Shown here: positions 1 through 64,000 of the stretch, one piece after another
Layout: each line of letters begins with the position of its first letter
How positions within the stretch are numbered: position 1 is the stretch's first letter
Assembly (NCBI GenBank): GCA_947561715.1
Contig: OX387200.1
Span: 1,862,501 to 1,926,500 of the forward strand
Reading direction: 5' to 3'
Source of the DNA: Ascidia mentula
Taxonomy: Eukaryota; Chordata; Ascidiacea; Phlebobranchia; Ascidiidae
DNA: 64,000 bases
Notes under the pieces: model-generated
What the model was told of the DNA's origin: nothing
Seen by the model: only the letters and a program-made list of their open reading frames with translations
Database searches by the model: none
Program-made: the position numbers and the translations under genes

Positions 1-3000
1 CTCGGGTGTTCGGCGGTTTTCAGCAAAGTTTCTCTTGTCAACAATAGGTTCGATGGTCTGCTGATAGCAATTAACCCAGATGTGCCAGAGGACCCTTTAA
101 TTATCGAAACTCTTAAGGTGAAAAATGGATAAAGTACATAAGCATGAAATCTATACTATGAATTCTGTATGCTGCATATGTTACTTATAAATGCTTATGT
201 ATATGACATACTGTCGCACAGAGTCTGGCGGCACTTTTGATTTCGCTTTTGCTTGGCCGTAGTGTTTCTACCTTGTTTTATCTGTACGGTTACATCTAGT
301 TTGGTGCCCAACGGATGACTGCGATTGTATAGTCACCACAAAGTTAAAGGGCATTGCCTGGCATGCAGCTTACTCTCTTTTAATTTAATTCTTTCTGTAC
401 TGGTACTGGTGTATTATTTGTGGCAGTCATCAAAACTCAAAGTTCTCAACTCACATAAACTGAGAGAAGAAAAGGCAAATTTTGCATTGCAGAAATTGAA
501 TTATGTAAATCTGTTTCCCTTTATCCAGGAAATGATCACGGAGGCTTCCAGCGTCTTATTCACTGCGACCAAGAAGCGAGCTTACTTCGGTGACGTCACT
601 ATTCTAGTTCCGAAAACATGGAACGGAAGTTACGACTCGGCGCACGGTCAAAGTTACGATCTGGTATTGGCATTGTTACCTTCCACATCAAACAGGGGAA
701 AATTTTTAGAAGGTTTTGTTGTAACTGATATCACGTGATTTCAGGCTGACGTCGTGGTCGTCGATTCCAACCCTGTGTACGGTGATTCCCCGTACACGCT
801 ACAGTATGGTCAGTGTGGAGAACCTGGAACCTACATTCACTTGACTCCTGAATATTTGAGGAACGAATCGTTTGTAACTGACTTCGGTCCTCGAGGTACA
901 AATTGTTCCATCGATGATTTTGGCAAGGCTCATCTTTCTGTGCTGCTACTTTTAGCCAAAGTTCAAAACAATCCTATCGAAATTTGGCGTTGTAATATAT
1001 GCTTCTATTAATGTTAAACCACCTCCAAATAAGTTTGCCGAGAGAACTTAAATTTCTATGCAATAGTACGCTGTCACAAGATAACCAATGCAACAATTAC
1101 AATAATTTTCTTGACAGGCAAAGCATTTGTGCATGAATGGGCGCATTTACGTTGGGGAGTTTATGACGAAGCATCGACTGAAAACTACGCAGATTTTTAC
1201 TTTGACAGCAAGCAAGATGTTCAGGCTACCAGGTAGTTACCTAATAAATCTTGAGCATACAACAGCGGATTTACAATCTTTAAACCGTTTTATGACCGTT
1301 CAGTATGGTTGATCACGGGCATTCAGAAGCGTCACGTTCATTGCATTTACGTTACCCAACGAACTTTGTCATGACACATTTAGTTCAATTCAACACAGAG
1401 GGTAATACACAGCTTGTTGCCTTAAAAGCTAATTGCCAGATCGTTTTATACATCGCTTGAGAAGGAAGTGAGAGGTGGGGGGTAAGCCATTATAGCGGAT
1501 CCCCCACCTTCAAAGCAACATTGATATTCATGGCCGCACGATACAGGCCCTAGTTCACCGCCACCCATTTTGGTGTAGCGTAATATTGCAACATTCGCCA
1601 AGTGAGGTACTTTCCAATCAGTTTACAATTACCGCTGAGTGACGCGAGTAGCGGTTCCTGGCTACTCTTATCTAGAATACAAATATCCCCAGCGGTTTTG
1701 CAAACAATAATGTTGGTTTGTATATATTCTGTTGCCTGGTGACAATCTGCTTGCTTTGTGTCGCAACTCTTTGCTCTTCGTCGGGCTGCAAATTGATTGT
1801 TTGTCAAGATATGTTGAAACATTTTGCCGCCGCAATGCAATGTTTCTCGGCGATATTTCTGCTCACAACACGCCAAGTAAAGTTTTGCATCCGAATGACC
1901 TTTGTCAACTTTCTGCAGTAGACAGCATCAGTATCTGGTTTCTTAACTGCTATTGTTTCCAGTGCACTCCTTGTTGTCAACTTAGGTGCACTCCTTGTTG
2001 TCAACTTACGTGCACTTATTGTTGTCAACTTAGGTGCACTTCTTGTTGTCAAAAACAATTAAGATTAAACATTTTTTGCTCCCAAAAACATTATGTTGGC
2101 CTGAAAGCATTGATACTATAATTGTTGTCTATCCAAATATTTGCTCTTTTCACCCGCCTCACACATTTGCAAAGCTGTTCACAAAGCAAGGGCACAACAT
2201 CATGACTGAATACTTTACAGGTGTCCCTTGGGGCTGAAGGGTCAGAACTTTTACTTTCCACCGGATGATCCAAATAATTACAGAGTTTGCAGAGTTAATC
2301 CAAATACTGGTTTACCTGAAGCTGGTTGTGTGTTTGTTCCTTACTCTGACACACCGGTCAACGCTTCTTTAATGTCCCACCAGTATAAAGAAGAGGTTTG
2401 GAATTAATAATGATACTTCTAGATGTAGGTTCGAACTTTAATCAACATCCTTGCTTGGTTTTTCTGTGTGTTACGTCGTTGGTCGTTTATTTATTTTACC
2501 AAGTCCAGTTTAATTTTACAACCCTGTGTTCAATGCTGCCACGGTTTACAGGTCATTGCAAATGTTGTTTGGTTTACTAGTAATATCCCATTCATAAAAT
2601 TATTGCTATGCTTAAGTATTGGGTTGAACGAAGATAAGAAGTAGGGCTTTAGTAAACTGTATCACAGAATCAACAGATTCACAACGAGGACGATGTTTAG
2701 TCATGCTCACCGACAATAATAGTGACAAGCTAACACCTTACAGATCGTAGAGTTTTGTGACGACCAAGTTGAAGCCAACCCGCAAGTAATCAACCATCAC
2801 AACACTGAAGCTCCGAACGAGCAGAACAGATTATGTGACTTGAGAAGTGTTTGGAGTGTCATCAGATCGTCAGTTGATTTCAGCAACAACAACTTTCCTA
2901 ATAGCAACATTGTTGATGTTACGCCAAAGTTTTCCGTGGCACAAGCAAAACCTTTTGAGAAGTTTGTCCTCGTCCTGGATGTTTCCGGGAGCATGGGAGG

Positions 3001-6000
3001 GGTAGGTTAAACATTTCGGGAAATTTGTTTTTCACTTACCAAATAAACCTGAAGCGTGTTAGTACACGGGAGCTCCTTTCAGATGTATGAAATGAATAAT
3101 AGCAATTTACAAACTTAGCATTATGCGCCAGTGTTCACATGCACTGTCTTAAAAATGGTTGCTGTCTTTCGTAAATCAATTTCGCTTTGGTTTACTGTTT
3201 TAGTATAAGATTGAAGACATGAAAACAGCGGCAAGTTTGTTTATAAGCCAATTTCTTCCTGATGGCACAAAAGTTGGAATTGTGGCGTTTGAATCCAAAG
3301 CGAACATTTTAACGTACCTTGTTACCATTGACAACAACAGAGAGTACCTTGTGGACTTGATTGGTACGCTCGTAAGCGGAGGAGGAACTTGCATTGGCTG
3401 CGGAATTGAACATGGAATTGAGGTGACAACAAACAATGTCATGAAATATCGTTAACACATTTTTCATTAGGTGCTTGAAAGTGATGGTTCATCAGCGGGA
3501 GGCGGGCATTTACTTGTACTTACCGATGGTGAGGAGAACGGATCTCCAATGGTTATAGACACAAGATATGAAGTATTAAAAAAGGTAAACGCCACGATAA
3601 AAAACAAACATCAGTATAAAATTTTTTGTGCAACAAAACCAACTAATTTGCAACTACGATACTCTTTTCTTATATAAGGCAACCACATGCTCCCAAACAG
3701 TTTAGCAAAACAACATTTTGTCCCTTTGTTATCAGGAAGTGGTGGTGGATTCAATATTTTTTGGCGTCACTGTCGCCAACCAAGATCTTCAAGATCTATC
3801 TGAAGACACACACGGACTTTGGTTCTTTAATGATGCAACAGATAGCGGAGCTTTGCTCGAATCTTTCAAACAACTTGCAAACAATGACGATGGCGATGTT
3901 TACAACGAAAACTTTCAGGTACTACTCATAAAAATATACGAAATTTAAAGATTGCTACAGCATACATTGCTGCAAATTTGTTCTTCTAAATTAAAAAATC
4001 AAGATAAATCCACTTACTTGCCTATATAGAATTTCTTTTTGGCCTGTCTGTTCTCACGCAAAAATACAAAGTCAAGTCACACTTTTGTTTACAGCGGGTA
4101 TTTTAACCTATTTTATTTAATTTTATTTAGATTTACGGAAATACATTCACAATAACCTATTACAGCCAACAAAATGGGACAGTGTTCATCGACTCAACAA
4201 TTGGAAACCAAACAGTGTTTACGTTTTCCTACTCCAACAACATTGATGTTATTCTATATTCACCCGATGGGACACATTTATGCACTGCAGGTGTCTCCAG
4301 TTGTGACGGATACGCAACTGAGGACAGTTCTTTCAAAACAATCATGTTTTCGATTTCTGGAACTGCCACGGTATGAACACTCAACGCTCTACAAAATCAA
4401 ACAAAATTCAGGTGTTTTCTTTGCTATAGGTCGGAAGTTGGCTATTTCAAATTATTACCGGTACTTCCTCCGACAGCGTTGACGTCATAGTGACGTCCAT
4501 GGCAGCGGACAGAGAAGTCGAACCGATGGTTGTAGAATCAGGGATGTCAGATATTGATCCAACCGACCAGGAACCGATCGTTGTTTATGCTAAGGTTTTT
4601 AATTCAAAATATTTTTTCCTTACATCGCAACAATACCAGTAATGGTACAATTACTCATTTTTACGGATTACCTGGGGTATATTCGTTATTTGAAATCTAA
4701 ATATATAAGACGGTATTCATTGCAGATGCTAGAGATTTTTATTACTATAAAAACGGCTCTTCTGAAACCTGGCATTATTTACGAAATTAAGTTGTTACTT
4801 GCAGGTAACCGTTGGTTACACCCCCGTACTTGGGGCTGAGGTTATTGCAACAGTTTCATCTCCATCTGGAACAACCTATACACTCACACTGTTGGACAGT
4901 GGATCAGGTAATATGGGAAACTGTTTCCTTGACATCTTTAAACTTGGTATTTTTACCTATCAACTATCTATAAAATAACACCCTGGAGGTTTTTTTGCAA
5001 ATGTTTGTTAAATTGTTTCAGCTCCTGACGTTCGTAAGTTCGATGGAGTTTATTCACGATATTTCACCCAATTCGCAGAGGAAGGAAGATATTCTGTTTC
5101 GGTAAAAAAAAGTATGTTAGGCAAATTCCCAATGTACACAGATGTGTTTAGGTGATAGTAACGGGGATGGGGAACCAGACAACTTCCACCTACGGTAAAT
5201 CCCTGTCATCTTCAGCCCTCTACAACCCAGGGTCTGTTGAAAACGACGGTAAGCTGGAGTTGAAAAGTAAAAACAACCAAATTCAATATATGTGCAAAAA
5301 AGCCATATTAAATGAGAGCTGCAGACAGGGTGTACATGCACTGTTTCGACCTATAAGTTATCATCAGTGCAGCTGTTGACTGTGTCACTCTGCTAGCTTT
5401 TACACTAGCAGGCACACTGATTTCCACTTTGTGGTACCTTTCGGTCAACGTCGATCTGTTGGGTACTCTATACTGAGCACCAAACAAAAGAGACGAACCA
5501 CAACCAAACGATATTTCACGTATATTTTAGGTACTCTAACTCTGAACCCAAAAGGTCCGACAAATAACGCAGAGACAACCTCCGGTGAAACCGGAGTTTC
5601 AACTTCTGAACTTGATCCTTTTACTCGAGTTGTGTCGCCTGGCGGGTTTTCATACACAGGGTATGCTTGGTGTTTTATTTTTTGCACACAGATACGTGAA
5701 CGTATCTGCAGGTAATTTCAAAATTTACCTTTGGGAAATTTATTACTTTACTCGACTGGACTGCAAGGCACCTGACAACCGAATGCTAAAATGTCGAAAC
5801 TTGATTGTTCCATTACCATTTTTATTATTTTCACATACACTTATCTTGATTGTTGATGAAATGCATCTGCCAACTCTAATGTCCATTTAAGTGGAAAATT
5901 AGATTTCTACATAAATTTTTTTGTAATTATTATTTACTTTTAGAGCTGTTGTTGACCCTGCAGTAGATATCCTTCCGCCGAGCAAGGTCATTGACCTCCA

Positions 6001-8718
6001 AGCCAGTCAAGTTGACGTCACTGACTTGGAACGTGGAGTCAGACTGACGTTCTCCGCTCCTGGTTCCGATTACGATTCAGGAACAGGTTTGTTTGGTGTT
6101 AAGCATACAAGATGAGCTTCGTGTACTGCATTTACACACAAAATAACTGGTGATTTGTGGCCAAATTAATAAAACATTTTTCTGGACTTTGTAACTTTTT
6201 GAACAGAGTCACAGTATCTTGTATTTTGCTTGGCGGGAATAATTTCCGTTTAAGTGATTTAAAAAAAATGACAGAGCAATTTTGGTTTTCAAGCTGCTCA
6301 CTATGAAATACGTTATTCCTACAACGGCACAAGCGGATTGGTCAGCAATTTCGAAAACAACACCCTTGTGGAACAAGACATGGTTATTAACGGAAATATC
6401 TCAGCACCCCAGGAAGCGGGGAACGAGGAAACAATAGTTATAGAACTTATTAACATTCCAGAAGATCACGATGCCTTGAGGTATGTGAGAAAATTGTGTG
6501 ACTGAAAATCATCTTGCTTGTTTTGCTTGTTTTGCTTGTTGTGTCTAGCCCTTCTTACACTGTTGAAGCAACTACTTTCAACATATATTCTTGTAAAACT
6601 GTATCAAACGTTACTTAAAATGAAACTTATGGCTCAAAAAGCTTGTGTTATGCCGTCTATGCCAAAGGCATCCATAACGTATGTCTAGCGCTTTTTACAA
6701 TGTTTAAAGGAACTACTTTCAGCATAGATTGTGGTAAAACTCTATCATATGTTTAAGAGGCCGTGGAGGTTAATTTAGAATGAATTTTGGCTCAAACAAA
6801 TATGTATTTTGTTGTTGTAAGTATTTGGTTTGCAATGCGAGCAAGTGACCATGCATCTTTGTTGAGTCCAACATCTAACGTTGCCATGATGAACGTCTTC
6901 GTCGTCCCGTATGTTCCTCCAACCTACCCAACAAACGATACAACGACAACAACAACAACAACAACAACAACAACTACAAGTGCAACCACTGTATCAACAC
7001 CACAAAAATCCGGTCAGGATTATGTTTTATTATGAAGAAGAGATTATTATTGCAGCAAAAAAAAGTTAATTTAAACTACATTAACTATGAGACTAGTTTT
7101 TTCCAACCACATTGTACTTGTCTATTGCTTTTCAAAATATTATTTTTAATCAAGTTGCAACTATCAGTTTGGAACCGTTTTCGCTTTACTTGTCATCTTG
7201 TTGGCGTCGTTTGGGCTATATTTTAATTAGAAGATTAATATGACTTCAAACGTTTTTAGATTGCCAAAAGAAGTTGGAGATTTATCAGTTGACCACCGTG
7301 ATACTTGCACCGGTTTGTCTTGTGCTTGGTGAGCCGATATAATATTACCAACGGGGGTAACTTATCTACTGTGGTTTTAATGTTGTCCATCTTGCCGAGC
7401 GACAGTTGCATAAGTTACTAATGTGCTTCAACCTTTATATTGCGGCCGTAGATTGCTGCCCACCATTTTCGAACACTCGCAGTAAGGAATTTGTAATACA
7501 ACGAGTGCAAAGTTGGGTTTATTTATGCAGGGTTCCATTTTTGGGTCTGTGGGCCACCCGTTCGATCCAATATATTGGAACCCTAACTCGTTTTTGGGTG
7601 AAATGATACAAAATAACTTCAGCACTCCGTATTGTTTATGAAAAAGTACTGAGATGAGTCTCGACAGGACAATGCGGGGTCGCTCAAAGTTTAACTGACT
7701 CGCAGTTCAGCAATCCATGTTGAATGGGTTAATCGAACATTCAAAATGTGAACTCTTATTAATTATTTTGCATTGATGTTGGGTTTTAAAATACAATATA
7801 TCCTGCCAGTAATTTACTCACTAGTGCTTATGTCAAGGAAAAATCATATTTTAAATATCAGGTACTTTCCTTTGCGTTTATCACATTCATTGATAACTGA
7901 GTTTCAACATGGGAAGTAAGTATGATTTTGCTTGAGGTTTATAAAGGTTTAAATGGAATGCCATTTGTCTTTGCACGTTAGCTCCAGAACTGAATTTTGC
8001 CTGTATTTATCAAACACCATCGGTAAACAAATAAAGATTTCAGCACTCATTTTCAATTCAACCCATAATTTAAAAAACGTCGCTACAAATTTGATAAATA
8101 ATATTGTCATTTTTCAACCCATGCATTTGTCGTTTTTAAATGCATGCACAGTGCACTGTTTGCAAAACAACTTAATAAACAACTCGTGATGGACAATTGG
8201 AAAAGTAGTTTCGTTTAAAAGAGTATTTTTACTGTGTTTACCCATATCCCTGATGACAGAGTAAAGGAAATTATCTAAAATTTAGGAACACAACTCACGG
8301 ATTTACTCATAATTCTGAGAATAAAAAGACTGGCCCATACTGTTATTAACATTGTCATGTTCGGCAGGAACTTATGTCATCATCAGTTTGACATGACAAT
8401 GTTAAAAACAGTTTGGGCCAGTCGTTTTATTCTTTTCTAAAATGTTACAATACAATTTGCCATTATCAGAATTAGGATTTTATGTCACCTAACATTTCAG
8501 TTTGCTCCTTGATTGCCACCATAGTGATGCACAGTCGTTTAAGCAAGCAACGCAAGAAGTTCATGCGAGAGTTGGAGGAAATGAGGAATTCACACGAGAT
8601 GCGTTCACAGCCATCGCGTGTGAGGAGTGCTTGGACCGAAGAGGAACCGAGACTTTTTCCCAAGCCAGAAGTTCGTCCTTCCAGCCACGCGCGCACCAAT
8701 AATGCATATATGATGTAA
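1..8718 (+). CDS. CLCA-like: Gene 1: CLCA-like metalloprotease/VWA membrane protein (5' tip missing)
   Basis: Twenty exons read in frame: 1-117, 529-663, 745-895, 1118-1232, 2221-2395, 2744-3001, 3204-3422, 3471-3584, 3736-3918, 4131-4370, 4430-4594, 4805-4907, 5022-5101, 5152-5248, 5531-5660, 5944-6086, 6294-6480, 6822-7012, 7260-7328, 8501-8718. They give about 1029 residues. Only the signal-peptide start lies outside the window. Exon 4 carries the zinc motif [13 protein letters not shown] (HEXXHxxxGxxDE), exon 6 ends in the MIDAS motif DVSGSMGG, exon 7 has TCIGCG, and exon 8 has LTDGEE. The FN3-like region (exons 16-18) is followed by a poly-Thr stalk, a membrane helix (exons 19-20) and a basic tail. 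CLCA proteins are known as self-cleaving metalloproteases that modulate TMEM16A chloride channels; a role here is inferred from homology. A possible AATAAA lies at 8929-8934. The tail most resembles those of genes 2 and 3. Confidence 0.88.
1961..2052. repeat. 24-bp minisatellite in intron 4 of gene 1
   Basis: About four copies of a 24-base unit containing TGCACTCCTTGTTGTCAACT stand in tandem with few differences. The block lies in the long intron between exons 4 and 5 and has no coding role. Confidence 0.85.
5296..5525. mobile_element. Inverted-end repeat insertion in gene 1, intron 14
   Basis: The left part contains GAGAGCTGCAGACAGGGTGT and then CACTGTTTCGACCT, the end motif of a family seen elsewhere in the window (42355-42698, 62727-62818, 26595-26690). 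The inner part, with the segment around GGTCAACGTCGATCTGTTGG, matches the body of the copy at 42355-42698 in the opposite orientation. No coding capacity is visible. It fills most of the intron just before exon 15. Confidence 0.65.
6940..6977 (+). repeat. ACA microsatellite coding the poly-Thr stalk
   Basis: A run of ACA triplets inside exon 18 of gene 1 codes a threonine tract just outside the membrane helix. It is in frame and so expands the O-glycosylatable stalk. Confidence 0.85.
8319..8432. repeat. 114-bp inverted repeat (hairpin) in last intron of gene 1
   Basis: Arms of 41 bases at 8319-8359 and 8392-8432 are complementary with three mismatches, around a 32-base loop. The arms include GACTGGCCCA and AACATTGTCATG. 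It lies 68 bases before the final exon. It could be a small foldback or MITE-type element, or a structured intronic RNA; no target-site repeat is clear. Confidence 0.8.
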
Positions 8719-10149
8719 CTTATTACACCTTTACGATTACTGCTCTATTTACTAACGTACTGTGACAATTTTCTATTAGTGTTCACAATTCCCGCTTTAT
8801 TGCTTACAGTAAATCTGTACAAAAACAAATTAACAAATGACTCGTCGCAATACAATATAACAAAAAACCTAAATTTATTCCTTTTTATAAATTCATGGAA
8901 TGCAAAGAAATATTCTGATGCAGTGGTCAATAAACCGTAGAAATCGGACTTTCCGTGTATGTGGAATCCTTATGATATGAGGCGTTAGTTAATAATTAAG
9001 GTAACAACCAGAAAAAATACTCACGTTGTTCAAAGATGCTGAAACGTACATGCTGCACATTGAATACATACAAAGATGTACATACTGCACATTGAATACA
9101 TATAAAGATGTACATACTGCGCATTGAATACATATAAAGATGTGCATACTGCACATTGAATACATATAACGATGTACATACTGCGCATTGAATACATATA
9201 AAGATGTGCATACGCATACTTATTGATCGAAAAATGTTTGCAGCAAAAGTTTGCTGGTAAAATACAAGAGCTGACGGTGATATTATCGTCTTCCTTCACA
9301 CAATATCAACAACTAGGACAGCCTTCATGTTATGAAACTTCCCAAAATTCTTCTGTTTGAAGTTTACATGGAAATGGAGCTTAACCTTCATTAACTCCCC
9401 CCAAAAAATATCCAAATCGGCCCCCTATGATCAGGGCCAAATGTTTGTTACAAGGCAATTGTTTTCAATTGCGTCATTGCGAATAAACTCAATGTAAGTT
9501 AGTTGGTTAAGGTTCAAATGCGATATTCGATACGATGCTTTGGTTTGATGTTCTGTGGGGGAAAAGTTGTAATGTTGGTGTCCGGCAAAGTGACCTGCGT
9601 AACTCCATCCTATGTTTAAACAACCTTTAACAACCATGCCAGAGTTTGATATCTCTTTTATTGAGGCAAAATTTCATAACAGGTGAGTTGCTTTTCTTGT
9701 ACATTGGACCCTGTTAAGTTGACTCTGATGGGAGCAGTCAGTGTGCGAACAGTTAAGTTTACGATCTGACGTCTGGGATGATAAACAACAACATTAAATA
9801 CTTTGTTTGCTATTTCTGCAGAACTGCTCCAGACTAATCAAACTGTACTGATAATATTTAACTGCATGCCTGGTTCCATCACGACACACTCCCAAGTCAC
9901 GCGTTCTTATTTCAAATGTGGAATTCGAGACAGGTTAGGTTTCTGTGGGATGAGACAGACTAATACATTTAATGGTTTGGGGACATGGGTGGTTCCATAA
10001 CGTAAGCATTTTTGTAGGGCAGCGTTGCGTCTAATTACTTCGTCAAACTCTTACTTTATTGCTTTATTCTATGTGCACTTTTTTGAACTAAATCTCCACA
10101 GAGAAACGATCTTGTTTGTTAGTGTTACTGCGATTACCGATTCACTATA
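8719..10149. other. Intergenic region between genes 1 and 2
   Basis: It contains the likely 3' end of gene 1 (AATAAA at 8929) and a 32-bp minisatellite (9054-9213). I see no convincing gene. A segment at 9824-9936 has splice-like borders (CTGCAG before, GACAG/GTTAGG after) and an open frame, but I cannot align it to any CLCA exon. Confidence 0.6.
9054..9213. repeat. 32-bp minisatellite, five copies
   Basis: Five tandem copies of a 32-base unit containing TGCACATTGAATACATA then AAGATGTACATAC, with only a few substitutions. Open frames across it on the minus strand are low-complexity by-products. Confidence 0.9.
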
Positions 10150-11595
10150 ATGCAGTGGATTTTGTGTCTGTGCTTTGCTTTCTTTGGAATAATGCAGGGG
10201 AGTGCCGTGGAATTTAATCCTGCCTTTCTTCAAGGCAATGCCGACAATGAAGAAATGGATTCCATTATGTCAAGACTAAAGCACCAAGTGAACGTCAACA
10301 ATTTGCAAGTAAACTTTGCGATGCAATAACATTGAAGTATTTATTGATTTATTTTGCTTTGAAAACCAACTGGTCAATTTTGTAATCTTGTCTGCTGTAA
10401 GTTGATAACAATATTTCCTTAGGAAAACCGGGAAAACCCAACAAACGATGTTTTTGACCTTCACGCGAAACTGATTGACGTCACCGACTTGTCCCGTGGC
10501 CTGAAGTTAATCTTCACTTCCCCTGAATCTTACAGCGGTTGGTAGCAAATATATTTCCGCAAATTCTGTGTAAGAGTATATTTTTTCACACACTTTTTTT
10601 ATGCGTGTTGCGTAGACACCAACTACGACATCCGGTATTCCTCAACAAGTAAAAGCGAGCTCATCAACGACTTCCAGAGTTGTCATCCTGCACAAAAAAT
10701 TGAAAAAAACTTTCTTAGGAGCCAAACAGAATTTATCGTAAAGCTTGGAGATTTTTTCCAAAAGCAAGAAGACACCAGGTAGGTGAAAAAGATCTTCACT
10801 AGCGAAAAATCTACGTTGTCAGATACAGCAGTAGTAAGGAGTTTTACTTTGATCTACCTTCAAGCATCACTTCTTCGTTATCTTCAAAATATACTGTGAT
10901 TTCAAATGGAAGTAGTATGACTTTACTACTTGTTTGTTTTAGCACCATCTGGATAGCCGTTCGTTTTGGCGACAATACCGGAGACCATTTATCCAACGTT
11001 GTAAAAATCAACTTGTACAATACACCAGTAAATTTTGAGGGAACAACAGCTGAACCAGAAACAACAACAGCTGCTGCACCAGTTACCACAACAACAACAT
11101 CAGCTGTGGTAGTAACAACAACAACAAAACCGGGCAAGGCGTCACTACATAATCCACTTAAACTAATCGATTTTTTTTATTTATTTAGAAAAAAATTAGT
11201 TATAATGAAAACTAATAATTGAAAATTAAATCATTGTCAATCGCCGTAAATGTATTTTTTAACTCTTTTTGTCTCTTCAGAAATCGAGAAGAAATTGGAA
11301 ATTTTTCAGTTGACGACAATAATTCTCGCTCCAGTATGTATCATAATGGGTAAGTAATCCATGCTTATTGCATGATCACGTATTAACAATTTGTTTGTGG
11401 TTTTCAGCTTGTGCTCTGCTAGCGTCGTGCATTATGACTAGTCGCCATAACAACCAGCGCAAGAAGTACGAACGGGAGTTGCTTGAGATGAGGGTGGAGT
11501 TGCAACGATCCACATCCTGGAAGAATTATCAAAACATAAAGCGGCCGGATCTCAGAGGAACCTCGGATCACGACAACTTTAGTTTCGGTCCTTGA
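10150..11595 (+). CDS. Gene 2: mini-CLCA, signal peptide plus FN3-like region, stalk and TM only
   Basis: Six exons in frame: 10150-10308, 10423-10537, 10616-10778, 10943-11133, 11281-11349, 11408-11595, giving 294 residues. Exon 1 codes a signal peptide (start MQWILCLCFAFFGIMQ) and a short acidic linker. Exons 2-6 match CLCA exons 16-20: the VTDLSRGLKL strand, the DIRYSS segment, IWIAVRFGD, a Thr-rich stalk, the [14 protein letters not shown] membrane helix and a tail with NIKRPD. Phases match the full-length genes from the exon 2/3 junction on, and exon 5 is the same 69 bases. The metalloprotease, cysteine-rich and VWA exons are absent, so this cannot be a protease or bind ligand through a MIDAS. 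Intron 4 starts with GC instead of GT. It may be a decoy or partner of the full-length proteins; that is inference. Confidence 0.82.
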
Positions 11596-12297
11596 ACGTG
11601 TATAGTGTATATCTGAATAATTAGAATCTAGCTTGTATAAAGGTATAAGATTTAGTGACCAGTAACAAGATTATTGAAATTCATGAAATTCTTCTTTTAT
11701 TAAGATTGGTAAAACATTTGAACGAAAACCTTAAAAAATAAAAATCCGAATATATGGTTTTGCTGAAAACTTTAACGTCTGTAAAAAGTTCTGTGGCATT
11801 CAGTTCTTGTTGCCTGTTAATTTCTTTGGGCTTTGTTCTGTCTATATTGGCATTGACTCAAACAACCCCATACACACATGGCGTCCATAATGTTTTACAG
11901 TGAATACAATTTTGGGAGTGAAAAACTCACTTGGAGAAAAATTTTGGAGAAAACAAAAATGTGTTGATGAAAAAAACAGGAAGAAACAGAAAATGAATTA
12001 ACGACAATTTATCTTTTGGCAAATTTGTGATATTGCAGCAATTTGTGAACCTAAATGCAGCTGGAATGCTCATGTGTACGTAGGACCCGCCATCAAGGCA
12101 CGGTTTGTACACAGTTAAGTTTACGATGTTTGGGCGACGGAACCGCATAACTGCAGTGTTAATATTGCGCCATGCGTCGTACGATGACAAACTTATACAC
12201 CGACATCGTATTACCTGAACATACCTGGGTCTGTTTAACGTTGAGAAGGCCGCTATGTAGTTAAAATGTAACAAAACTGGAAATTCATTCGTCTTGC

Positions 12298-12845
12298 ACT
12301 GACCTTCCCGGAAACGTAATACTAAATATAACACTCTCGTATATCTGACTCCTGTGTTACTATTTAAACAAAGTATGTTGACCTTTAAGATTTACCTTCC
12401 AATTAAATTCATTAAAACACCAGCAAAAACACTCCGACAACTTGCAAACAACGCATCGAATCGGTTCCAAACAATAACTCTTATAGACTGGCGAAAATCA
12501 ATCAATTTTGCCTTGTCTCTCTCTTGGTCTTTTACTTGTCTCTTGTTACTTGATAAATTTTAATGGAATATATAGCCAATGAGAGTGCAGTTAATTGGGT
12601 CCGAGGAAAAGAAAGACTACTTAAAAATGACGTTAGTGTTAAAGGTTATGAAAAGATTGGTGTAGAACGTTTTAATGAGGTGGACGGTGCGCAACTTATG
12701 TCATTTAGTATGAATGATGAATGTTCGCTCGTTCTAAACGAGTTGACGTGAGTTTGGGAAGTGACCGTGGTTAATTGCAACAGCTTGATGTCGGGACAAA
12801 GCAATTTCATGTTAAACAATAGCATCACGATACTTAGAACTGTGC
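12298..12845. repeat. Direct duplication, copy 1
   Basis: It matches 14288-14857 over about 550 bases, including the TTTAATGAGGTGGACGG and ATTTAG-ATGAATGATGAATG segments. A 40-codon frame is open in both copies. The changes between copies are mostly amino-acid changing and the frame upstream differs by indels, so I do not call it coding. Confidence 0.8.
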
Positions 12846-14287
12846 AGAATATGGAATATACGTGACAACAATATACTTCGTTCACCGAGTTGTTTGATGG
12901 ACATGTTTACATATTCGCGCTGGAGACAATATGTAAAGCTGCTACGTGAGGACACCATAGCTCTTACCTCCAACTGCGATAAAAAAAATCCAACGCGATT
13001 ATCATACCTTGTGAGCAACTATTTCGTGTGTTAAAGAGGAGTATACCAATACAAATAGGTTCGACATTTGACATGTGTTCAGCAATTCCAATGGTATACA
13101 AGTAAACGAGCCTTTGTACTTGGTAGCAGCGATACAGTTGAAACAGTCCACTAGGTGCGGGCTAATGACAAAAATTTTCAAATGTGAAATGTAATCCACG
13201 ACTTGGATTTATCATGAATCTCCCACAATGCAATTTATAGACTTGCAGTGTGTTATACTGAGTGGCGTTTTTCTGCGGTCTGAAAAATAAGTCGCCTTTT
13301 AAAATTTACCATTGCGATTAAACATCGTAGGCAAATCACTGCGGACTTTTACAACTTGCCCAAGGCCCAACGCATAATATTTCAGCTTTATGTCCATGTT
13401 TTTGTTGACGACTGGACACATGCGAAATAAGGGAATAGTTACATGCACCTGATGGCGACTAAGCAGTCACATGCTGCTTCTTCGGACTATGTTCGGTAAA
13501 AGAGAGCTATGTGTATGAAAATGGATAAAAAAATTAATGCGTAGAGAGTACGCGGTCGCGTCATTGCGCGATTGCCCGATGCATTTGCATTGAAAACACC
13601 ATTACTGTTAATTTGTGCATTTCCTCTACCATTTTCCTTCGGCAAGTTTAAAAATTAAATAAACTTTTATCGTTTTGGGAACACGTAGTCTTATCAAATC
13701 TAAGATAACTTTTATACTGGTCCTTAATCAGTCCGATAGTTACTCACAAAAGAGGATGTCGAGTTTAAGGTCAAGCGATTCGTTGCAAATCAATATTAAT
13801 CGTTAAAGTTACCTCACGTACAAGAAGTGTTTGTGTTTACGGACATAAAACAAATTCGCGCGTGACGTAACCCTTATTAAGATGCATGCGTTATTGTAAA
13901 CATTACAACTTCAAATGAAAAGATAGATTGACATAACCACTACGGTCTGCGTTTGCTTAAACTATAGAAACGGTTTCGCAGTTGACAAAACATGCTTAAA
14001 AGCAGTTTGGCATTTTCTTAAACAATCGGGCGCAGAAAAACAAACATCATACCTTACAATTGTTCGAAATGCCTGATCCGGTCTCTCTCCTCAAAGGAGA
14101 ACGACGATAAATTTTAAAAAACTTGTTTGAAATGGGTAAATATTTTTTGTTCGTACAATCGAAAATTTGTAGACACAAAAAATTACCCATACTTACGGTT
14201 AGTTTATTAACATTGCGCAGATTATCAATCAGAAGGTTGATTTGGGTGTTCAAGTTCAAGTATCACGTCGGGGTCACCAAATTTGCA

Positions 14288-28620: not shown

Positions 28621-28869
28621 AACAAGTGTCTCATTGATCATTATTGATCCGTTACACTGTGGTTTGAACTCATCTTTACCCCACAGTTGTAGGTTTCGCT
28701 CTTAATTCAACATTTCATGAAATGGATACAATATAAACCATTTCCTTAAAGTTAATGACTTAATTACGTGAGCAGTGATTTTTTTTGAGAAATTATGATA
28801 AAGAACCGGTAATTTGTCAGTCTAACTATTGTTAATTGCCGCCTTAATCGCGCCACTCTTACTTCGTGC

Positions 28870-51600: not shown

Positions 51601-51675
51601 GTTGAGAACCATTATCGCATATCTTCTATATCAGGGGATAAATCTGCACACAGCAATGGTGGCTACGAAAATTAA
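45620..51675 (+). CDS. CLCA-like: Gene 7: full-length CLCA-like protein, B type with gene-1-like exons 5-6
   Basis: Twenty exons: 45620-45781, 45854-45988, 46106-46256, 46378-46492, 46848-47022, 47398-47655, 47765-47983, 48040-48153, 48353-48535, 48696-48941, 49173-49337, 49413-49515, 49630-49709, 49821-49917, 49978-50095, 50233-50375, 50591-50777, 51023-51261, 51333-51401, 51491-51675. They encode 1047 residues. The ATG at 45620 is chosen because it matches gene 6; an in-frame ATG at 45581 adds 13 basic residues before the signal peptide. Zinc motif [38 protein letters not shown]. Intron 4 starts GCAAGT (GC-AG). Exon 5 and most of exon 6 follow gene 1, not gene 6. The tail lacks the FKRPE motif (HYRISSISG) but ends GGYEN. 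AATAAA at 51950-51955. Confidence 0.91.
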
Positions 51676-53541: not shown

Positions 53542-56500
53542 ATGCACTGGAAACTTAAGTTTGTGGTTATGCTTGTATGTTCTTTGGGATGTCGGGCTGA
53601 TTTCGACAAGGTTTCGCTTCAAAACAATGCGTACAATGGTGTAGTGGTTGCAATAGGTTCGGAAGTACCCGAAGATACGCAGATAATAGAAGATATAAAG
53701 GTAAAACAACCGTTCCCTTGTTTTGAATGCGTCTGCAATCGAAACAAACGTAAATATAGGCACCATGTATTGTATGTAACGTATTTTCTGAATTTGATCA
53801 GCATATTATTGTTAAACTCATGTATTGCATTAATAATTGTTGTTTGTCTTCCAGGAGACGATCACAGACGCTTCGAAAATTCTATTTTCCCTGACCAAAC
53901 ATAGAGCATATTTCGGTGACGTCACAATCTTGATCCCGAACGCCTGGAATGGGAATTACAAGATCGCAAGCGGACAACTTTATGACATGGTAAGGCAGTA
54001 ATAATGCAGGACCGTCATAGTATCACAATAATGCTAAATGCTATACGTGGGCCCGTGTATTAACTGTGAATATCTCAGGCTGACGTCATTGTAGCCGATG
54101 CCAACCCTGTGTACGGTGATTCCCCTTACACACTACAGTATGGTCAGTGTGGAGAACCTGGAACCTACATTCACGTGACTCCTGAATATTTGAGAGAAGA
54201 TTCGAAGGATCGCGGTAGGTTCGCGTCATTGGGATCGCCTTTTACGTATAGACACGATTCAAACTGATTACAAAACTTCCTAACATTTAAACACACTTTT
54301 ATTATGAAATTGTTTTTCAGGTAAGAAATTTGTTGAGGAATGGTCTCGACTTCGTTGGGGTTTAGACGATAAAAGTCTAACAGATGTTGATGGGGATTGG
54401 CGTTTTTTTGACATTCAAGCTAATGACGTCAACAGGTTGGATATTATTATGTTTGTATTTAATTCACGTACCTTAAACACTTTACAATCTATGTTGTGTT
54501 GTAAAGTCGACCCATTACTTTCGGAAAGCAAAAACAGTCAATTGTACTCTCGTATTTGTCAAATATGAGTGCGAGCCAATGCTTTTTCGTATGCACAATG
54601 CTGTCAAATCAATACCAACAATCAGTACATGTCAATAAGTATTCCAATGTACGCAGTCAGTACATGCAACTGATCACGAACTTTACAAATGCATCATAAA
54701 GCCACAAAACAAACAAATCAATGACGCAAATGTTGCAACTCGACTTGTTACAAAAATCAAGTGCTTCCTGTAGCCATGTTTGTCAACCGTCTGTGTGTTT
54801 GTTGATTGCCCTCTGCCCGAACCTATTGTTAGCACAAAAAGCTGATGGTCGTAATTCAAATGTCAACGCCGTAAGGTGAACTTACAGCGCGAAATACGAC
54901 TTTGCCACGAACTTTACGAGATAACTAACATTCTATGGACAAGGACTTAATGACAGTAAAACACGCTTTTGCTGCGTCAGTAAATTGATAAAATACTCGG
55001 TGAGCTGGGCATATATGTCTGCACTGATGTGGGTACTTTAACATACGCCCCTATTCATACTTACAAATTTCATTCCCAAAAAATGATGTGGTATTATAAC
55101 CTAGACAAGGTCATTTTCACTGCATAGCTATAAGTTACTTACAACGATCGTCCATAGGTACACCAAGCAGCACTTTTGAGACCTTATAAGTCGAAACAAT
55201 TGCCATCTCTGTGAGTAGTTCACTGAAATATTTGCAATGAAATTATTACTAGTCTCACAACATTCTTCAGGGTTTGCGGGTTGCAGAGTTATTGGGACGT
55301 ATTGGAAAGGGCAGTGGACTTTCACAACACAAATCCACCAAACCCAGACATCGAGGACTTGACGCCAAAGTTTACAGTAGTACAGGAAAGACGCCATCAA
55401 AAGATTGTGATTCTTGTTGACGTTTCCATAAACGAGGTGACCCAATTCTATTTGATATTTTTTTAAGTGTCATTTTAACTGATTTTGATTCAATTATGTG
55501 CCTAGGAAAAGTATTTATGAGGTCACGCAAAACTGCCTAAGGGGTAAAGTCACAATTGGGGCGTTTTAATGACGCTTCGTTAACATTTTTAACAGAACCA
55601 GCTGCGAGATGTCAAGAGAGCCACAAGTATTTTACTTAATCGGTTTCTGTCGGACGGCACCAAAGTTGGAATTGTTACTTCAACATCATCAGTTCTTTCT
55701 CAATTGACCTCAATCGACGACAGCAGGCAACACCTCGTTGAAATTGTCAGCAATGCGAAAGTGGAAAGTGGGTCATGTATTGGTTGTGGAATTCTCGATG
55801 GACTTGAGGTTAATATGCATAACAGTATTGCGTGTTTCATTTGAAAATTATTGCAAAGTTTGAAATTAACGCGACAGCATCGCTAATATTATGATCATTC
55901 CACAAAATATTGTTCACTATAGTAAATACGTAGCATGCCTGTGATTTTGTGCTGTTGCGCACTGGCGGGTTTCCCCTGTCTGCAATACGATCTCATGTAG
56001 CTCACCAGGATGCGGCAGCCACTACACTACGAGGGTCATGAGTTTAAACCTCCACAAATCGGGATATTTCTTTATCCTTTTTTGTATATGTCAGCTTATA
56101 AAAGCGATGATTTTTGTTTTGTTAGTTGTTTTGTCAAAGCCGCTTTTTCTACCTTTTCTGTGTAACAATGTAACAACTAATGGATAATGCAAAAATTTGG
56201 TGATGCATCTGTTACTTTAAGGTTTTGAGAGGTGACGGTGAACCGGTGAATGGAGGTCGGCTTATAATTCTCTCCTGTAATAAAGACACAGAAAGTCGTA
56301 TGTTGCCAGAGGTTAAAAACAGGGTGATGCAACTGGTATGAACTAGCATTACATAGTTTGTCTTTGAGCATTTTTTACCCATATTTTGTTTATCTTAGGG
56401 AGTAATCGTCGATTTCATAATGAGTGGGGGTTCCGCAACCACTCAAGAACTTGAAAATTTGTCCGAACAAACAGGGGGTTTCCCGTTTTATAACAATCCT

Positions 56501-59500
56501 GCGGACAGGAGTCAATTTGTTGCGTCTTTGGCTCAGTTGGTTAACTCGTACGACGGTGATGCTTATGACAATGTATTGCAGGTAATTCCATGAGTGCCTG
56601 ACGTCGTTTTCATTGCAACTGAGAGTGAACCTTAATTTTTTAGATATACAGTAAAACGTTCGAAGCAGAATCCACTCAGTTCAACGATGAAGTATTAATT
56701 GATTCGGGAGTAGGAAGAGATACAATTTTTTCATTTACATACTTGAGTAAACCCATGGACGTAATTGTAATTTCTCCTGAGGGTTCGAGGTTTTGCACCA
56801 AAAACATTAGGAATTGTGAGCATTACGCTGTGGAAGATAGCTTGCTTGAAATGATCACGTTCACCATTCCTGGCACAGCGACGGTATAGAAAATTGATTG
56901 GACGGATAACAACTCACATGTTTATCTGCTCAAAACTTTTGTAGGCCGGCACTTGGTTTTATCACCTGAGCATTGATGTAGAAGTCCCCAGCATCGTTGA
57001 CATCATTGTTACGTCAAAGATGGCTGACAGACAAGTCAAAGCAATTACTGCAAACGCCGAAGTCTCAACATACCAACTGGAGACCAAAAACTTAGTTGCA
57101 ATTTACACAAAGGTAAAAATTTACTATTATTGTGGAGTTAGAAGAAATTCATGCAAGGCAATTATGTTCAGGTTGCTAATGGTTACATTCCAGTACTTGG
57201 AGCCAATGTCTTGGCAACTGTTATTTATCCGTCCGGGCAAACAAAGGAAGTCGAGTTACATGACGATGGATCAGGTGAGAATACATTCGTTGCAGATGCT
57301 GTTGCTGACATAAACTTTAGTTAAAACTCAAGGAGGGTGTTCATTACCTACTGTATTAACTAATGTTGAGTAAACGCAATTTAGTGAAATTGTCAAAAAT
57401 ACACATTAAATACGACAACATTGCCATTTCGTCTAAACATTAAAAAAAATAACAAACGGCAGTGCGGCATATTTCCTGGAAAAGCAGAAATGTTGGTTTT
57501 AGCTAAAAACAGACCATGCACAAAGCCCCGTAATAATATTTAAACTGTTAGATTTAAAACAAACCAAAGTTGCTTATGCATTTACGCGGCTGAAGAAATT
57601 AAATGAGGTGATTTGTGTTTAGAATTTGATGTTTCTAAGCACGACGGAATTTATTCACGAGGTTTCTCAGATCTTAAAGAAACTGGAAAGTATTTCGTGC
57701 AGGTAAAATTTTCTCCATACTCAAGACTTGAGGTGGTTGTTTGGATGCTGAAATATTTTAAAAGCAATTTATTTATTTAAGGGCCCTTTAAACAAAGTCC
57801 TCTTTAAGCAATGTTTGTTTTAGGTTAAAGTATTGAGAAATGGACTGAAACACTCCGCGAAGATTGAAGGTGGTAAGAATTGTTCATCCTACTTTAGGAA
57901 TCATAATTGCAAAACTTCGAAAAGTAACCTCCTCTCTTAACAGATGCAAAGACAGAAAATGACAAAATCACTACTTCACAACTTGATCCATTCACGAGAG
58001 TTGCGTGGAGTTCCTTTTTCATAAACTCCAGGTACCAATATATATCGTAAGATTAAATCGTGGAATTTTTCGTCGAAATAGCAGTGATGTGCATTTGTGG
58101 TCGAAACATATTCCAATCGTTTATTTGAAAATGTTTAAATTTAGAAAATCAAGAAACGACTCTTTAGCGCCATCAAGCGATGCTATTGTAAAATTTATCT
58201 TGGAAGTTATTAAACCTGTCAGAAACACTTACCCTATGAAAACTCATTGAATACACGTTGCACTTTTGCATTTATCTGCTTCAGGGATTCGTTGGGGGAG
58301 GCGGCAAGTATTCCTTTAACTGAGGTTGATGACCTTCAAGCGGAACAAGTTGACGTCACAGACTTGTCACGTGGTGTGAGATTGACTTTCTCCATTCCTG
58401 AATCGAAGTTCAATCGAGTGTCAGGTCTGCTTACAATATTTACATAAGCAGCACCAATTAGGTGGATTACTTGGATTTATTACATTTTTTCAATGTTCTT
58501 GCGTAAAATTGTAGCCCTCAATAATAGCAATGCAAACGTGTGAAACGAATGTTCGAAAGCTTCTGTAGTATACTAAATTGGACTATGCGCCTGCTCCCGA
58601 CTTTATGTTTACTTTGCAATAACAGACGGAAACTATGAAGTTCGCTACAGCTACGTCGGCGAAAAACACTTAACCAACAATTTTGATGGTTGTAGTCTTG
58701 TCAAGGATTACAGCTACGAAGACAATTCCATAATAGTAAAATTGGAAAACTTTCCTCAATACCAAGAGGTTGTGAGGTAATATGGTATACAGCATGAATT
58801 AAGTTCTCCGCCTTATCTGCTTATTTGCATTCCGGTTTATTTTCGTCAAGAGTTTGGTTCGCAATTCGGTTGCTCGACAAAACTTCAACAAGAAGCCCGA
58901 CTTCAAACGTTGCATCAATAAGCCTGTTTTCTATGGTTGAAGATATGTCAGGATCTGGTGATGAACCGACCGCCACACCGAAGTCTGGTATGATGGTGCT
59001 TAATTTTGCAGTATGTTTTTTCATCGTTGCAGATACTACGTTATACCAATCCTGTAAAATTAAAACTATGCGTTTCCGTTTTGCAGAGGTCCAAAAGAAA
59101 CTGGAAATTTTTCAGCTTGTTACCATCATCTTAAGTGCTGTCTGCTTGGTGTTGAGTAAGTAAATTTAAAACTTTAGTTTACGAAATTTAAACATTTTAT
59201 TAAATCATGGAACTGTTTGCGTTTTTGCAGTTTAGATATTTAACAGAAAGGCTTAGGAAACTAAGAAATAACGGTTTGAGGTTCGGCATAGATAATAATT
59301 TTGATGTTTTTTTGACAGTTTGTTCATTGGTTGCCACAATTGTGCTTCACAAACGTTTGGACAAACAGAGAGATAAACTTCTCAAAAAACCGAAGGAGGA
59401 AGTTGAGATGGATTCTGTCCTGGATGAAGAAAGTTTGACGAATATTCCTAAACCAGCTCCTGATTATCAGATGTTCAAAAGGCCTGAAATCAAACCTCAA

Positions 59501-59551
59501 AGGGCTTCTTACAACAACTACAGTTATAATTATGCCGGAAATGAAAACTAA
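53542..59551 (+). CDS. Gene 8: divergent CLCA paralogue lacking catalytic and MIDAS residues
   Basis: Nineteen exons: 53542-53700, 53855-53989, 54079-54214, 54321-54435, 55271-55436, 55596-55808, 56222-56335, 56399-56581, 56644-56883, 56945-57112, 57172-57274, 57623-57702, 57824-57872, 57944-58031, 58285-58424, 58626-58776, 58851-58987, 59087-59155, 59319-59551. They encode 892 residues with every junction in frame. The zinc motif position reads EEWSRLRWGLDD (both histidines lost, residues 149-153). The MIDAS reads DVSINE, the threonine of TCIGCG is serine, and LTDG is LSCN. The cysteine-rich exon 5 and the first part of exon 6 are absent; exon 4 splices in phase to 55271. The stalk is short and not Thr-rich. 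Membrane helix and tail (MFKRPEIKP) are kept. The open frame over 19 exons argues for a selected pseudoenzyme, not decay. Confidence 0.85.
54436..55270. other. Enlarged gene 8 intron where the cysteine-rich exon should be
   Basis: Other copies carry a 172-175 base cysteine-rich exon here (CPxGLxG...GLPExGCVF). I find no remnant with those signatures. A short fragment of the inverted-end family lies at 55158-55205 (GAGACCTTATAAGTCGAAAC). Confidence 0.65.
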
Positions 59552-61721: not shown

Positions 61722-63900
61722 TTACGAGGATGATTTCCTCTCGGGATATTTGAATTGTTTGCACTCGTTATATGCCCACGCTTCTTTAACCTGGTAACGA
61801 CCCGCTTCCGTGTCTTGACCGTGTTGGGAAAGGAGTTTCTCACGTTGTTTGTTTAAACGATATTGCATGATTATCGTCGATATCAGAGCACACACTGCAA
61901 CATTGTACATAATTACATCTAACACATGTGACTATAGTTGTATTCGTTAATATATCAAAGAGATTTACCGAGGATTGAACAAGATATGGTCAGTATGAGT
62001 GTCGCCAGCTGGTAAGATTCCAGTTTCTTCTGAATATCTGGAATAAAGGCAAATTGTAAGTGTTACTATAGAAAAAGAATAATATGATTTGTGTTTATTA
62101 AGCTTCGAAGAATATCATTCTCCCTTACAACATTATAAAACTAACCCAATTTTTCTGTTGACGTTTGACTTATTGTCGTTGTTGTAGTGACAATGCCTGT
62201 GGTTTCCGGAACAAGAAACAAATTAGTTTCCGCAATGTTTGACATTTCACTCACTGTCATGTTGAAATATGCTTTCATTGCAAACCAAACACTGAAATAA
62301 ACACAAAAAACGATTCTGAAAAGAAAACTTTTAAAACAAAAACATTATCTTTACAACATGAATGTAAAATATGTTTGTAACAAATTTTACCAGCTTCAAT
62401 TTCACACATGGTACAAAGTCACCTAGCTTTGTCCTGGCCTTGTGGAACACTTATTAAAGTAACAACTATATTATCCGTTTTTCCTGGTTCATTCGGATGA
62501 AATATCGATCCCTCTAAGACGTGGTTTTGTGCGACAAGTGTGCTAGTACCGTAATTATTTGTTAAGTCGTCTTCACTGTTAAAGTTGTACCGAATGTCGT
62601 ATCCATTAGCTGAAAAAATAATAATTACATTTGCAAGTTATCCCACAAAATATACAAAAGAAACAACATATTGGATTGTAAAGATAAAGTCAATATTATA
62701 TGCACAAAAGAGCCATAATAGTCAATGAGAGCTGCAGACAGGTTTACACAGTGTCAAGCCGCACTCATGAGATCTTACAGGTCGAAAAAGTTTACACCTG
62801 TCTGCAGCTCTCAAAGTCAATAATGTTTGAGTGAGCGGCAGGCAGAGCCACTGCTTCGACCTATTAAATCTCGGAAGTGCGGCTTGATGACAAGTGCCGG
62901 TTCGCCAGGTTGCCAGACAATGATTTCCACATTGCATTGTGACATTGCCCCGCGAGACGAATCACAATTCGCACCTGCTTCTCCTGTATCTGACCCAGGG
63001 GCTGTGAAGGTCAATCTAACTCCACGTGACAAATCATTTACGTCGACTTGTTCTGCTTTTAGGTCGGTGATGTTGCTCGTGGAAGTATTTCCACTTGCGC
63101 GCCTAACAAAGTAGTCACGTCTTTGACCAATGTACACAAATGTTACTTTAAACACTGTTACTGAAACTAAATTAAATCAAGTTCACATTTACTCAGTAAT
63201 CTATATATTACCCAGTATAGGAATAGGGCATCGTGTTTCCGGGTTTCCTAATGTTTCCTTTTGAATTTGCAACAACATTACCTGGAAAGAGTAAAACGAA
63301 ATGAGAAATAAGTAAAATATAATCTCCTAGATCCTCACCGTCACTTTTCACCGACTTTGGATTAAATGCAGCTTTTGACACCCCCGCGTGCAAGAACGAA
63401 TATACAAAGTTGTCTTCTAACAAAGGAAGTTTGTCCTACGATAGGAATGCAAAAGCGTTGTGCATTGTATCCCGCTTCTCCGGGTAACTTAAATATTCTT
63501 TACACGTAGGAAGACAAATATGGTACGTGATAAATGCAAGGGAATGCTTACTTGAACATACGACTTTCCACGTTTCGTGCAATCGAACGGAGATTGGAAA
63601 TATGCATGGTTAAGAGCATCTAGTTCACAATACATTTGGCCAGAGTAAAAATCCGGGGTTACCCAAGTTAAAACTTCACAATGCATCAAACGTAAACTTA
63701 CGCACAAACTGGTGGTCATTCAGAGCTTTCAAAACAGTAAACTTTGGAGTCACGTCAATGATTGAATGATTAGGAAAGTTTGTGTTGTTGAAATCAACTG
63801 ACGATCTGATGACACTCCAAACACTTCTGTTACCGCACATGATGTTGTGCTTGTTTGGAGCTTCCGAGTTGTGATTGTGATCGTCACAGAACTCCGTTGA
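61722..63900 (-). CDS. Gene 10: CLCA-like protein without the VWA core (5' part outside window)
   Basis: Minus-strand exons in reading order: 63702-63900, then 63552-63619 (or from 63673), 63339-63435, 63212-63281, 62975-63102, 62423-62609, 62146-62291, 61969-62037, 61722-61894. The first matches CLCA exon 6 ([29 protein letters not shown]) but stops where the first VWA strand begins. The next matches exon 13 (GKSYVQ), so exons 7-12 with the MIDAS are gone and only about 80 bases remain between. Exons 14-20 follow with usual lengths and phases: FN3-like region ([12 protein letters not shown]), short Thr stalk, membrane helix (KKLESYQLATLILT) and tail (QFKYPERKSSS). Whether the metalloprotease part exists upstream cannot be seen here. 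The exact acceptor after the deletion is uncertain. Confidence 0.8.
62727..62818. mobile_element. Short MITE-like copy of the inverted-end family
   Basis: Near-perfect inverted ends (AGAGCTGCAGACAGGTTTACAC and its complement GTTTACACCTGTCTGCAGCT) lie around a 45-base core, with AGTCAAT repeated just outside both ends. It sits in a gene 10 intron. A second half-copy with CACTGCTTCGACCT follows at 62824-62890. Confidence 0.75.
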
Positions 63901-64000
63901 CTGTGTGGTTTAAACGAAAAGAGTTCAAAGTTATGCAGCCCTCAAGCATTGGAAGTAAAGCTTAGAGTTTGTTACAGCCCAATACCATATTGCTACTTAT

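Follow-up and report, generated by a model that had tools for sequence, protein, structure and literature searches.

Proteins of the CLCA family (PF08434; human CLCA1, CLCA2 and CLCA4) combine a CLCA_N domain bearing an HEWAH protease site, a VWA domain with a metal ion-dependent adhesion site (MIDAS), an ALY or AAY motif, a transmembrane (TM) segment and a tail, and tandem clusters of their genes can hold a pseudogene. Cleavage of human CLCA2 requires zinc and proceeds in trans, and a dead mutant retains its association with wild-type CLCA2 (PMC10669480). The canonical cleavage site is x/ALY (PMC9007345), the C-terminal fragment of CLCA1 dimerises and remains bound to the N-terminal part (PMC6851300), and the VWA MIDAS of CLCA4 is required for potentiation of TMEM16B (PMC11231702). 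Lenart et al. (2013) described lineage-specific CLCA expansions and substituted HExxH sites, which most likely reflect five independent losses (PMC3650047). In mammals, the CLCA3 cluster has undergone lineage-specific duplication and decay (PMC5773202). Here, we describe a tandem CLCA array in the ascidian Ascidia mentula, analysed in a window of 64,000 nucleotides (nt; contig C67, OX387200.1, positions C67:1862501-1926500) of a 196-Mb, 79-contig genome.

The array shares the domains and motifs of the known family, the putative cleavage motif among them, and likewise holds a pseudogene. It differs in exon number, with 20 exons against 14 in mammalian CLCA1, 3 and 4 and chicken CLCA1 (PMC9007345), and in containing open-frame forms that lack the VWA domain, or both the protease and the VWA domain. 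While mammalian CLCA3 was inactivated by stops, frameshifts and a cryptic exon (PMC5773202), four of the five reduced loci found here keep open frames. The window contains five full-length genes (A, D, F, G and H), four reduced genes (B, C, I and J) and one pseudogene (E). A first-pass annotation of the same DNA, made from the letters, had counted five full-length genes, a dead-enzyme form, a VWA-less form, two mini-forms and a pseudogene, and our gene models bear out this census. Motif scans and models likewise agree with its view that active-looking, inactive and stalk-only members are mixed within one cluster. We are all but certain of the structural side of this account, that is, the anatomy of the genes, their open frames, the sites of loss, the new junctions and the local homogenisation.

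Gene models were built from a seed, gene H, whose 20 exons were read by eye. Relatives were located by tblastn, and each was modelled with a custom spliced-alignment program, which reproduced the seed model exactly. PF08434 matched exons of A, D, E, F, G, H, I and J and nothing in 14 control genomes; TIGR00868 matched more exons, none above its whole-protein cut-off, and had matches in four of the 14 controls. The array extends past the window on both sides. Gene J runs beyond position 64000, and upstream lies g0 (-17143 to about -9600), a sixth such gene with protease, VWA, Fn3 part and TM segment. In the g0 model, the final two exons enter other sequence and were rejected, so that g0 was used only to about exon 20.

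The five full-length genes each have 20 exons on the forward strand: A (-44 to 8718, with 45 nt, the ATG among them, ahead of window position 1), D (18117-25121, 1046 residues), F (29268-36357, 1047 residues), G (37077-43907, 1031 residues) and H (45620-51675, 1047 residues). None has an internal stop, all are stop-terminated, and their introns are GT-AG except for one GC-AG in H. The exon 6/7 border of D lies 7 nt from that of the others, possibly a choice of the program. In A, a candidate exon 20 at 7810-7919 was rejected, as the conserved-tail exon lies at 8501-8718; exon-20 values computed for A with the rejected exon are void, while trees of exons 1-17 are unaffected. Among the five, H alone was scanned as a whole protein. 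CLCA_N matched it over profile positions 1-262 of 266 (E 4.1e-85), with exon-level matches for all five genes; its VWA domain matched PF00092 (E 4e-13), and the protein matched PDB 6PYO (E 1.1e-9). Pfam fn3 gave no match in H up to E 0.01, and the Fn3 part is named by its position in published CLCAs (PMC10669480).

The HExxHxxxGxxDE site, ending in [YF]DE, is found in all five full-length genes and in g0, and the MIDAS elements DVSGS and (S/T)DG, like the TM segment, in all five. Each of the five also carries an AAYNPG or ALYNPG motif, a predicted self-cleavage site like the vertebrate x/ALY; g0 has AFVYQG at that place. Gene A, for example, encodes HEWAH, DVSGS, a cleavage-like SALYNPG, a TM segment and a tail. 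A KRPE-like motif, defined by a loose pattern, occurs in the tails of eight of ten models (G, D, F, A, B, C, I and J, not H or g0) and may be a conserved cytoplasmic contact.

The reduced genes depart from this scaffold in different ways. Gene J (65638 to 61722, reverse strand; 14 exons, 620 residues) keeps a protease part (CLCA_N profile 1-262 of 266, E 1.7e-84) with HEWAH intact and gave no VWA match up to E 0.01. Its protease part is followed by degenerate exons 13-15, with an AAFNP motif, and by exons 16-20. Exons 6-14 of J lie in the window and exons 1-5 at 64067-65638, past its end, so that the first-pass annotation could see only exon 6 onward. Gene I (53542-59551, forward strand; 19 exons, 891 residues) has EEWSR in place of HEWAH, its CLCA_N match covers just positions 1-144 of 266, and the Cys-rich part encoded by exon 5 is absent. 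The loss of the protease site upholds the earlier description of I as a dead enzyme, and the damage goes further than was claimed. The MIDAS is dead as well (DVSGS changed to DVSIN, DGGEN to CNKDT), with a VWA_3 score of 16.6 bits, below the cut-off of 27. An AAYNPG-like cleavage motif was not found in I.

Genes B and C are smaller still. Gene B (10150-11595, forward strand; 6 exons, 287 residues) consists of a signal-peptide-like exon, a truncated exon 16 in phase 0, and exons 17-20, which encode the Fn3-like part, a Thr-rich stalk, the TM segment and the tail. It has neither protease nor VWA domain, and we infer that it resembles the C-terminal fragment left by self-cleavage. In six comparisons of the part of its exon 1 beyond the signal peptide, the closest resemblance was to J exon 1 (score reached by 9 of 500 shuffles) and to the cleavage-site region in H (11 of 500); in the other four, the score was reached by 73 to 126 of 500 shuffles. 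Gene C (15498-16851, forward strand; 4 exons, 337 residues) joins a signal-peptide-like start and 16-residue Thr-rich repeats to the stalk part of exon 18 and exons 19-20. The repeats are encoded by a 48-bp minisatellite in exon 1 (15565-16092, forward strand), comprising ten identical units and one diverged unit, the eleventh, which carries the modelled splice donor. Each of the ten identical units contains a donor-like string, GAAG/GTGCGA, in the same phase, and splicing from different units could yield isoforms of varying length.

Neither B nor C gave a CLCA_N match up to E 0.01. They are CLCA-derived, through exons 16-20 and 18-20 respectively, and are not CLCAs by definition. Gene C is comparable to the membrane mucins, which also combine Thr-rich tandem repeats in one exon with a TM segment and a short tail, and its start is signal-peptide-like by eye. 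Thr and Ser make up 47% of a stretch of 238 residues, and the protein has ten identical 16-residue units and a single TM segment. With a Ser/Thr-rich repeat ectodomain and a TM segment, C is a putative membrane mucin. It differs from known membrane mucins in that its stalk and anchor come from a CLCA, in having almost no proline (only 4 residues), and in that Pfam finds no mucin domain.

Across B, C, I and J, there is no internal stop, all introns are GT-AG or GC-AG, and intron phases are conserved outside the loss junctions. The TM segment and cytoplasmic tail are kept in all four. An N-terminal hydrophobic stretch exceeds the hydropathy threshold in B and J, and a signal-peptide-like start is recognisable by eye in each of the four. 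Because each has a TM segment, a tail and such a start, we infer that the reduced genes encode membrane proteins.

How the modules were lost can be read from the junctions. The first-pass annotation had proposed that exon phases allow modules to drop out in frame. The end phases of H exons 1-19 are 0,0,1,2,0,0,0,0,0,0,0,1,0,1,2,1,2,1,1, that is, ten in phase 0, six in phase 1 and three in phase 2. With this arrangement, 63 of 171 contiguous internal exon-run deletions (37%) keep the frame, close to the third expected without design. The runs missing from the reduced genes break it: 2-15 in B, 2-17 in C, 5 or 5-6 in I, and 7-12 or 7-15 in J. Of seven runs examined singly, the VWA core (exons 7-9) is the only one whose deletion is frame-keeping, and J did not arise by dropping it. 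Instead, each of the four relies on a splice site that is new or displaced: J a new donor within exon 6 (63702) joined to remnant exon 13 (63619), I a new acceptor within exon 6 (junction 54435/55271), B a shifted acceptor in exon 16 (10287/10423), and C a new acceptor ahead of the stalk part of exon 18 (16083/16200). Since clean loss would break the frame and every case was rescued by a splice-site change, phase-matched module loss fails as an explanation and was rejected. The introns at the junctions of J, B and C measure 82, 135 and 116 bp, too short for the missing exons to fit. In the 835-bp intron at the junction of I, neither tblastn nor a spliced search found an exon 5.

The position of B and C, directly downstream of A and in the same direction, raises the question of whether their exons are alternative 3' ends of A reached by read-through splicing rather than separate genes. 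The phases of B exons 17-20 and C exons 19-20 match those of A, and the B and C tails resemble that of A by eye. However, A has its own complete exons 16-20, B and C each start with an in-frame ATG exon of their own, and B exon 16, being in phase 0, cannot follow A exon 15 in frame. An AATAAA also lies 211 nt past the A stop, where 0.9 such signals per 500 nt are expected by chance. We therefore regard read-through as improbable and treat B and C as genes. Between them lies a 0.57-kb direct repeat (12294-12843 and 14283-14853, 83% identity), which may be a mobile element or a piece of the duplication that made them.

A stronger competitor is that the reduced genes are simply decaying duplicates, products of chance module deletions whose frames happen to be still open and which have no role of their own. 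In its favour, the array holds a clear pseudogene (E) and the block duplication described below, and decay is documented for CLCA3 in mammals (PMC5773202). Gene I is, moreover, accelerated in the VWA and following part, with branches of 3.04 and 2.46 changes per column. On the other side, the frames are intact, and many I, J and B exons have changed in length without breaking the frame. We simulated neutral substitutions only on each gene's own coding sequence (300 runs each). At 0.05 substitutions per site, this produced on average 5.06 stops in I (probability of none, 0.010) and 3.59 in J (0.020), and at 0.2 substitutions per site 4.64 in B (0.010), against none observed in any of them. The proportion of differing synonymous sites (pS) between I or J and the five full-length genes is 0.63-0.71, near saturation. 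Whole-gene ratios of nonsynonymous to synonymous divergence (dN/dS, Nei-Gojobori) against the five full-length genes of the window are 0.28-0.34 for I and 0.20-0.28 for J, the pairs with A having used the wrong exon 20 (7810-7919).

Because zero stops are combined with synonymous divergence near saturation, unconstrained drift over most of the divergence time is excluded in the case of I and J. Such drift is unlikely for B, and the open frame of C is weak evidence of constraint. Retention of the TM segment and tail in all four genes is also unlike random decay. Taken together, we consider decay without function a real but minority possibility.

The synonymous distances also bear on the quality of the assembly. 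Between genes, synonymous differences are mostly 0.5-0.9 per exon, apart from short tracts and two sister pairs, D/F (dS 0.22, pS 0.19) and G/H (dS 0.28, pS 0.23). These close pairs could point to collapsed or mis-joined haplotypes, from which the reduced copies would have been made artificially. Yet even their distances are judged too large for alleles, most pairs of eight genes are near synonymous saturation, and there is no N in the window or in five flanking loci. As the junction introns are also ordinary in size and have proper splice sites, an assembly artefact is highly improbable.

The array appears to have a composite history. Segments 17571-28612 and 28881-39326 are collinear in pieces, so that D and E correspond to F and G; E (26209-28622, forward strand), which retains frame-disrupted remnants of exons 1, 4, 6 and 7, thus arose with G as its partner in a block duplication and has since decayed. 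Trees of different parts group the reduced genes differently: I and J group weakly on the protease exons (81/78), I, J and B on the Fn3 part (87/90), and B and C on the tail (90/88). None of these forks meets the strict support mark of 95 and 80, and some of the reduced genes may share a reduced ancestor.

Superimposed on this history are short tracts of unusual similarity. In exon 3, pS is 0.16-0.33 among A, D, F, I and J (the D/F pair omitted) against 0.53-0.72 in comparisons with G or H. In A (745-895, forward strand), about 100 nt, by eye, nearly match the exon 3 sequences in D, F, I and J. This tract ends inside the exon, and the introns on both sides look unrelated. A second tract, H exons 5-6 (46848-47655, forward strand), is shared with A, with pS of 0.17 and 0.30 against 0.54-0.93 in other exons, and runs on into intron 4, as expected of ordinary gene conversion. 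Conversely, G and H differ in exon 5 (pS 0.73) against 0.03-0.30 in their other exons up to 18; they differ also in exons 19 and 20 (0.69 and 0.58). Runs of identical silent sites were evaluated in 21 gene pairs with 3000 permutations. Five pairs passed the threshold of 0.05/21: A-I in exon 3 (0/3000), A-G in exon 6 (0/3000), G-J in exon 6 (0.0003), A-J in exon 3 (0.0013) and A-H in exons 5-6 (0.0017). Seven more fell below 0.05 and nine did not, among them D-J (0.71), F-J (0.39) and H-J (0.10).

The tract-sharing genes thus include I, which is disarmed, and J, which is inverted. The short homogenised tracts in exons 3, 5 and 6 link active and reduced members and look exchanged; the data fit old conversion with later intron decay as well as they fit constraint on part of the array. 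The earlier proposal of graded loss from one scaffold therefore stands in so far as one exon scaffold, graded reduction and open frames in all four reduced genes are concerned. It does not hold as a simple series, given the part-wise groupings, the block duplication and the exchanged-looking tracts.

From these observations, a working model can be outlined. The array probably represents tandem ascidian CLCA genes under birth and death. Its full-length members are predicted type-I membrane metalloproteases that would cleave themselves or each other near (S)A(A/L)YNPG, and their VWA MIDAS would bind a partner, which in vertebrates is a TMEM16 channel; the genome has TMEM16/anoctamin matches at four places. 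The reduced genes would be expressed as membrane proteins that act at the cell surface on the same complexes. B would stand in for the C-terminal product of self-cleavage with no need of cleavage. I would be a partner that neither cleaves nor binds and probably cannot itself be cleaved, J would contribute a protease lacking the effector domain, and C would belong to the glycocalyx as a mucin-like protein assembled from the stalk and anchor of a CLCA.

We hold the functional part of this model, that the reduced genes are expressed and act on the same complexes, only tentatively, and regard the statement as a whole, a birth-and-death array that includes functional reduced membrane proteins, as evenly balanced. 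More speculative is the idea that one array has split a self-cleaving protease into separate genes, namely a fragment (B), a protease (J), a disarmed partner (I) and a new membrane mucin derived from the stalk through expansion of a minisatellite (C), with short exchanges linking active and disarmed copies. The first-pass annotation had gone further and suggested a co-expressed set of receptors, decoys and regulators. The array's combination of members that look active, members that are doubly dead and members that lack domains fits such a system, which is conceivable because human CLCA2 cleaves in trans and its dead mutant binds the wild type (PMC10669480). However, proximity is expected from tandem duplication alone, and we consider a system of this kind unlikely.

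Several points weigh against functional reduced genes as a reading of the array. The starts of C and I fall below the hydropathy threshold and are signal-peptide-like by eye only. Pfam gives no domain in B, and in C two sub-cut-off matches only (Bactofilin and VERL). At 0.05 substitutions per site, the probability of no stop in B is 0.23; for C outside the repeat array, the probability is 0.10 at 0.2 and 0.017 at 0.4 substitutions per site. A dN/dS near 0.3 partly reflects the partner gene, at a dS near saturation, and selection may have acted mostly before module loss. I and J have no AATAAA or ATTAAA within 500 nt past the stop, where the other seven models have one, although with about 0.9 such signals expected by chance per 500 nt this absence says little. 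Finally, the analysis covers the genomic sequence of one species.

Elsewhere in the genome, three more CLCA genes lie on contig C70, with protease, VWA and Fn3 part modelled; these models stop short of the TM segment and tail, and their first exons are uncertain. On C72 (L017, about 4000-8100), a strongly diverged CLCA-like gene has SEFAK for HEWAH and a MIDAS-like DVSTS, so that the protease site has probably been lost a second time, separately, in this genome. A lone CLCA_N fragment lies at C1:3795995-3796105 (E 5e-6), with no above-threshold gene model within the surrounding 10 kb.

Around the array on C67, the gap between g0 and A contains long, retroelement-like frames flanked by repeats (L010, about 1665-8900), one frame being repeated at 5850 and 8541. 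Downstream of J, two similar adjoining stretches (L011 3200-6100 and L012 740-3600) carry Ig-like and sushi-like exons by eye, and are perhaps a second tandem surface-protein family beside the CLCA array. Within the window, eight other open reading frames gave no Pfam match above cut-off (one at E 0.034 was below its cut-off), and Rfam at gathering scores found one tRNA only, a tRNA-Thr (GGT) at 41568-41643 on the reverse strand, within an intron of G and opposite to that gene. PF01341 (GH6) matched above cut-off at two places in the genome (E 9.2e-6 and 1.1e-4, the latter with one internal stop) and in none of the 14 control genomes. To our knowledge, GH6 cellulase in animals is known only from tunicates, and the two matches accordingly point to a tunicate source, probably an ascidian.

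Lineage-specific CLCA expansions, dead active sites and pseudogenes are thus known; module-stripped forms with open frames look new. Gene I and the C72 gene have a substituted site like the CLCAs reported by Lenart et al. (2013; PMC3650047), and I goes beyond those cases in that its Cys-rich exon, MIDAS and cleavage motif are missing too. The main text of that study contains neither the term Ciona nor the term tunicate. Among the open-access matches listed, there was no account of ascidian or tunicate CLCA genes or of VWA-less or stalk-only CLCAs, which does not show their absence from print.

The division of work among CLCA self-cleavage, VWA binding and the membrane remnant is being worked out in human cells by means of mutants. 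Provided that the reduced genes are expressed, one ascidian locus would offer natural separation-of-function versions of each CLCA part. CLCA1, a mammalian relative, is found in mucus. Gene C, again if expressed, would be a possible case in which a mucin-like protein was derived from one that is not a mucin.

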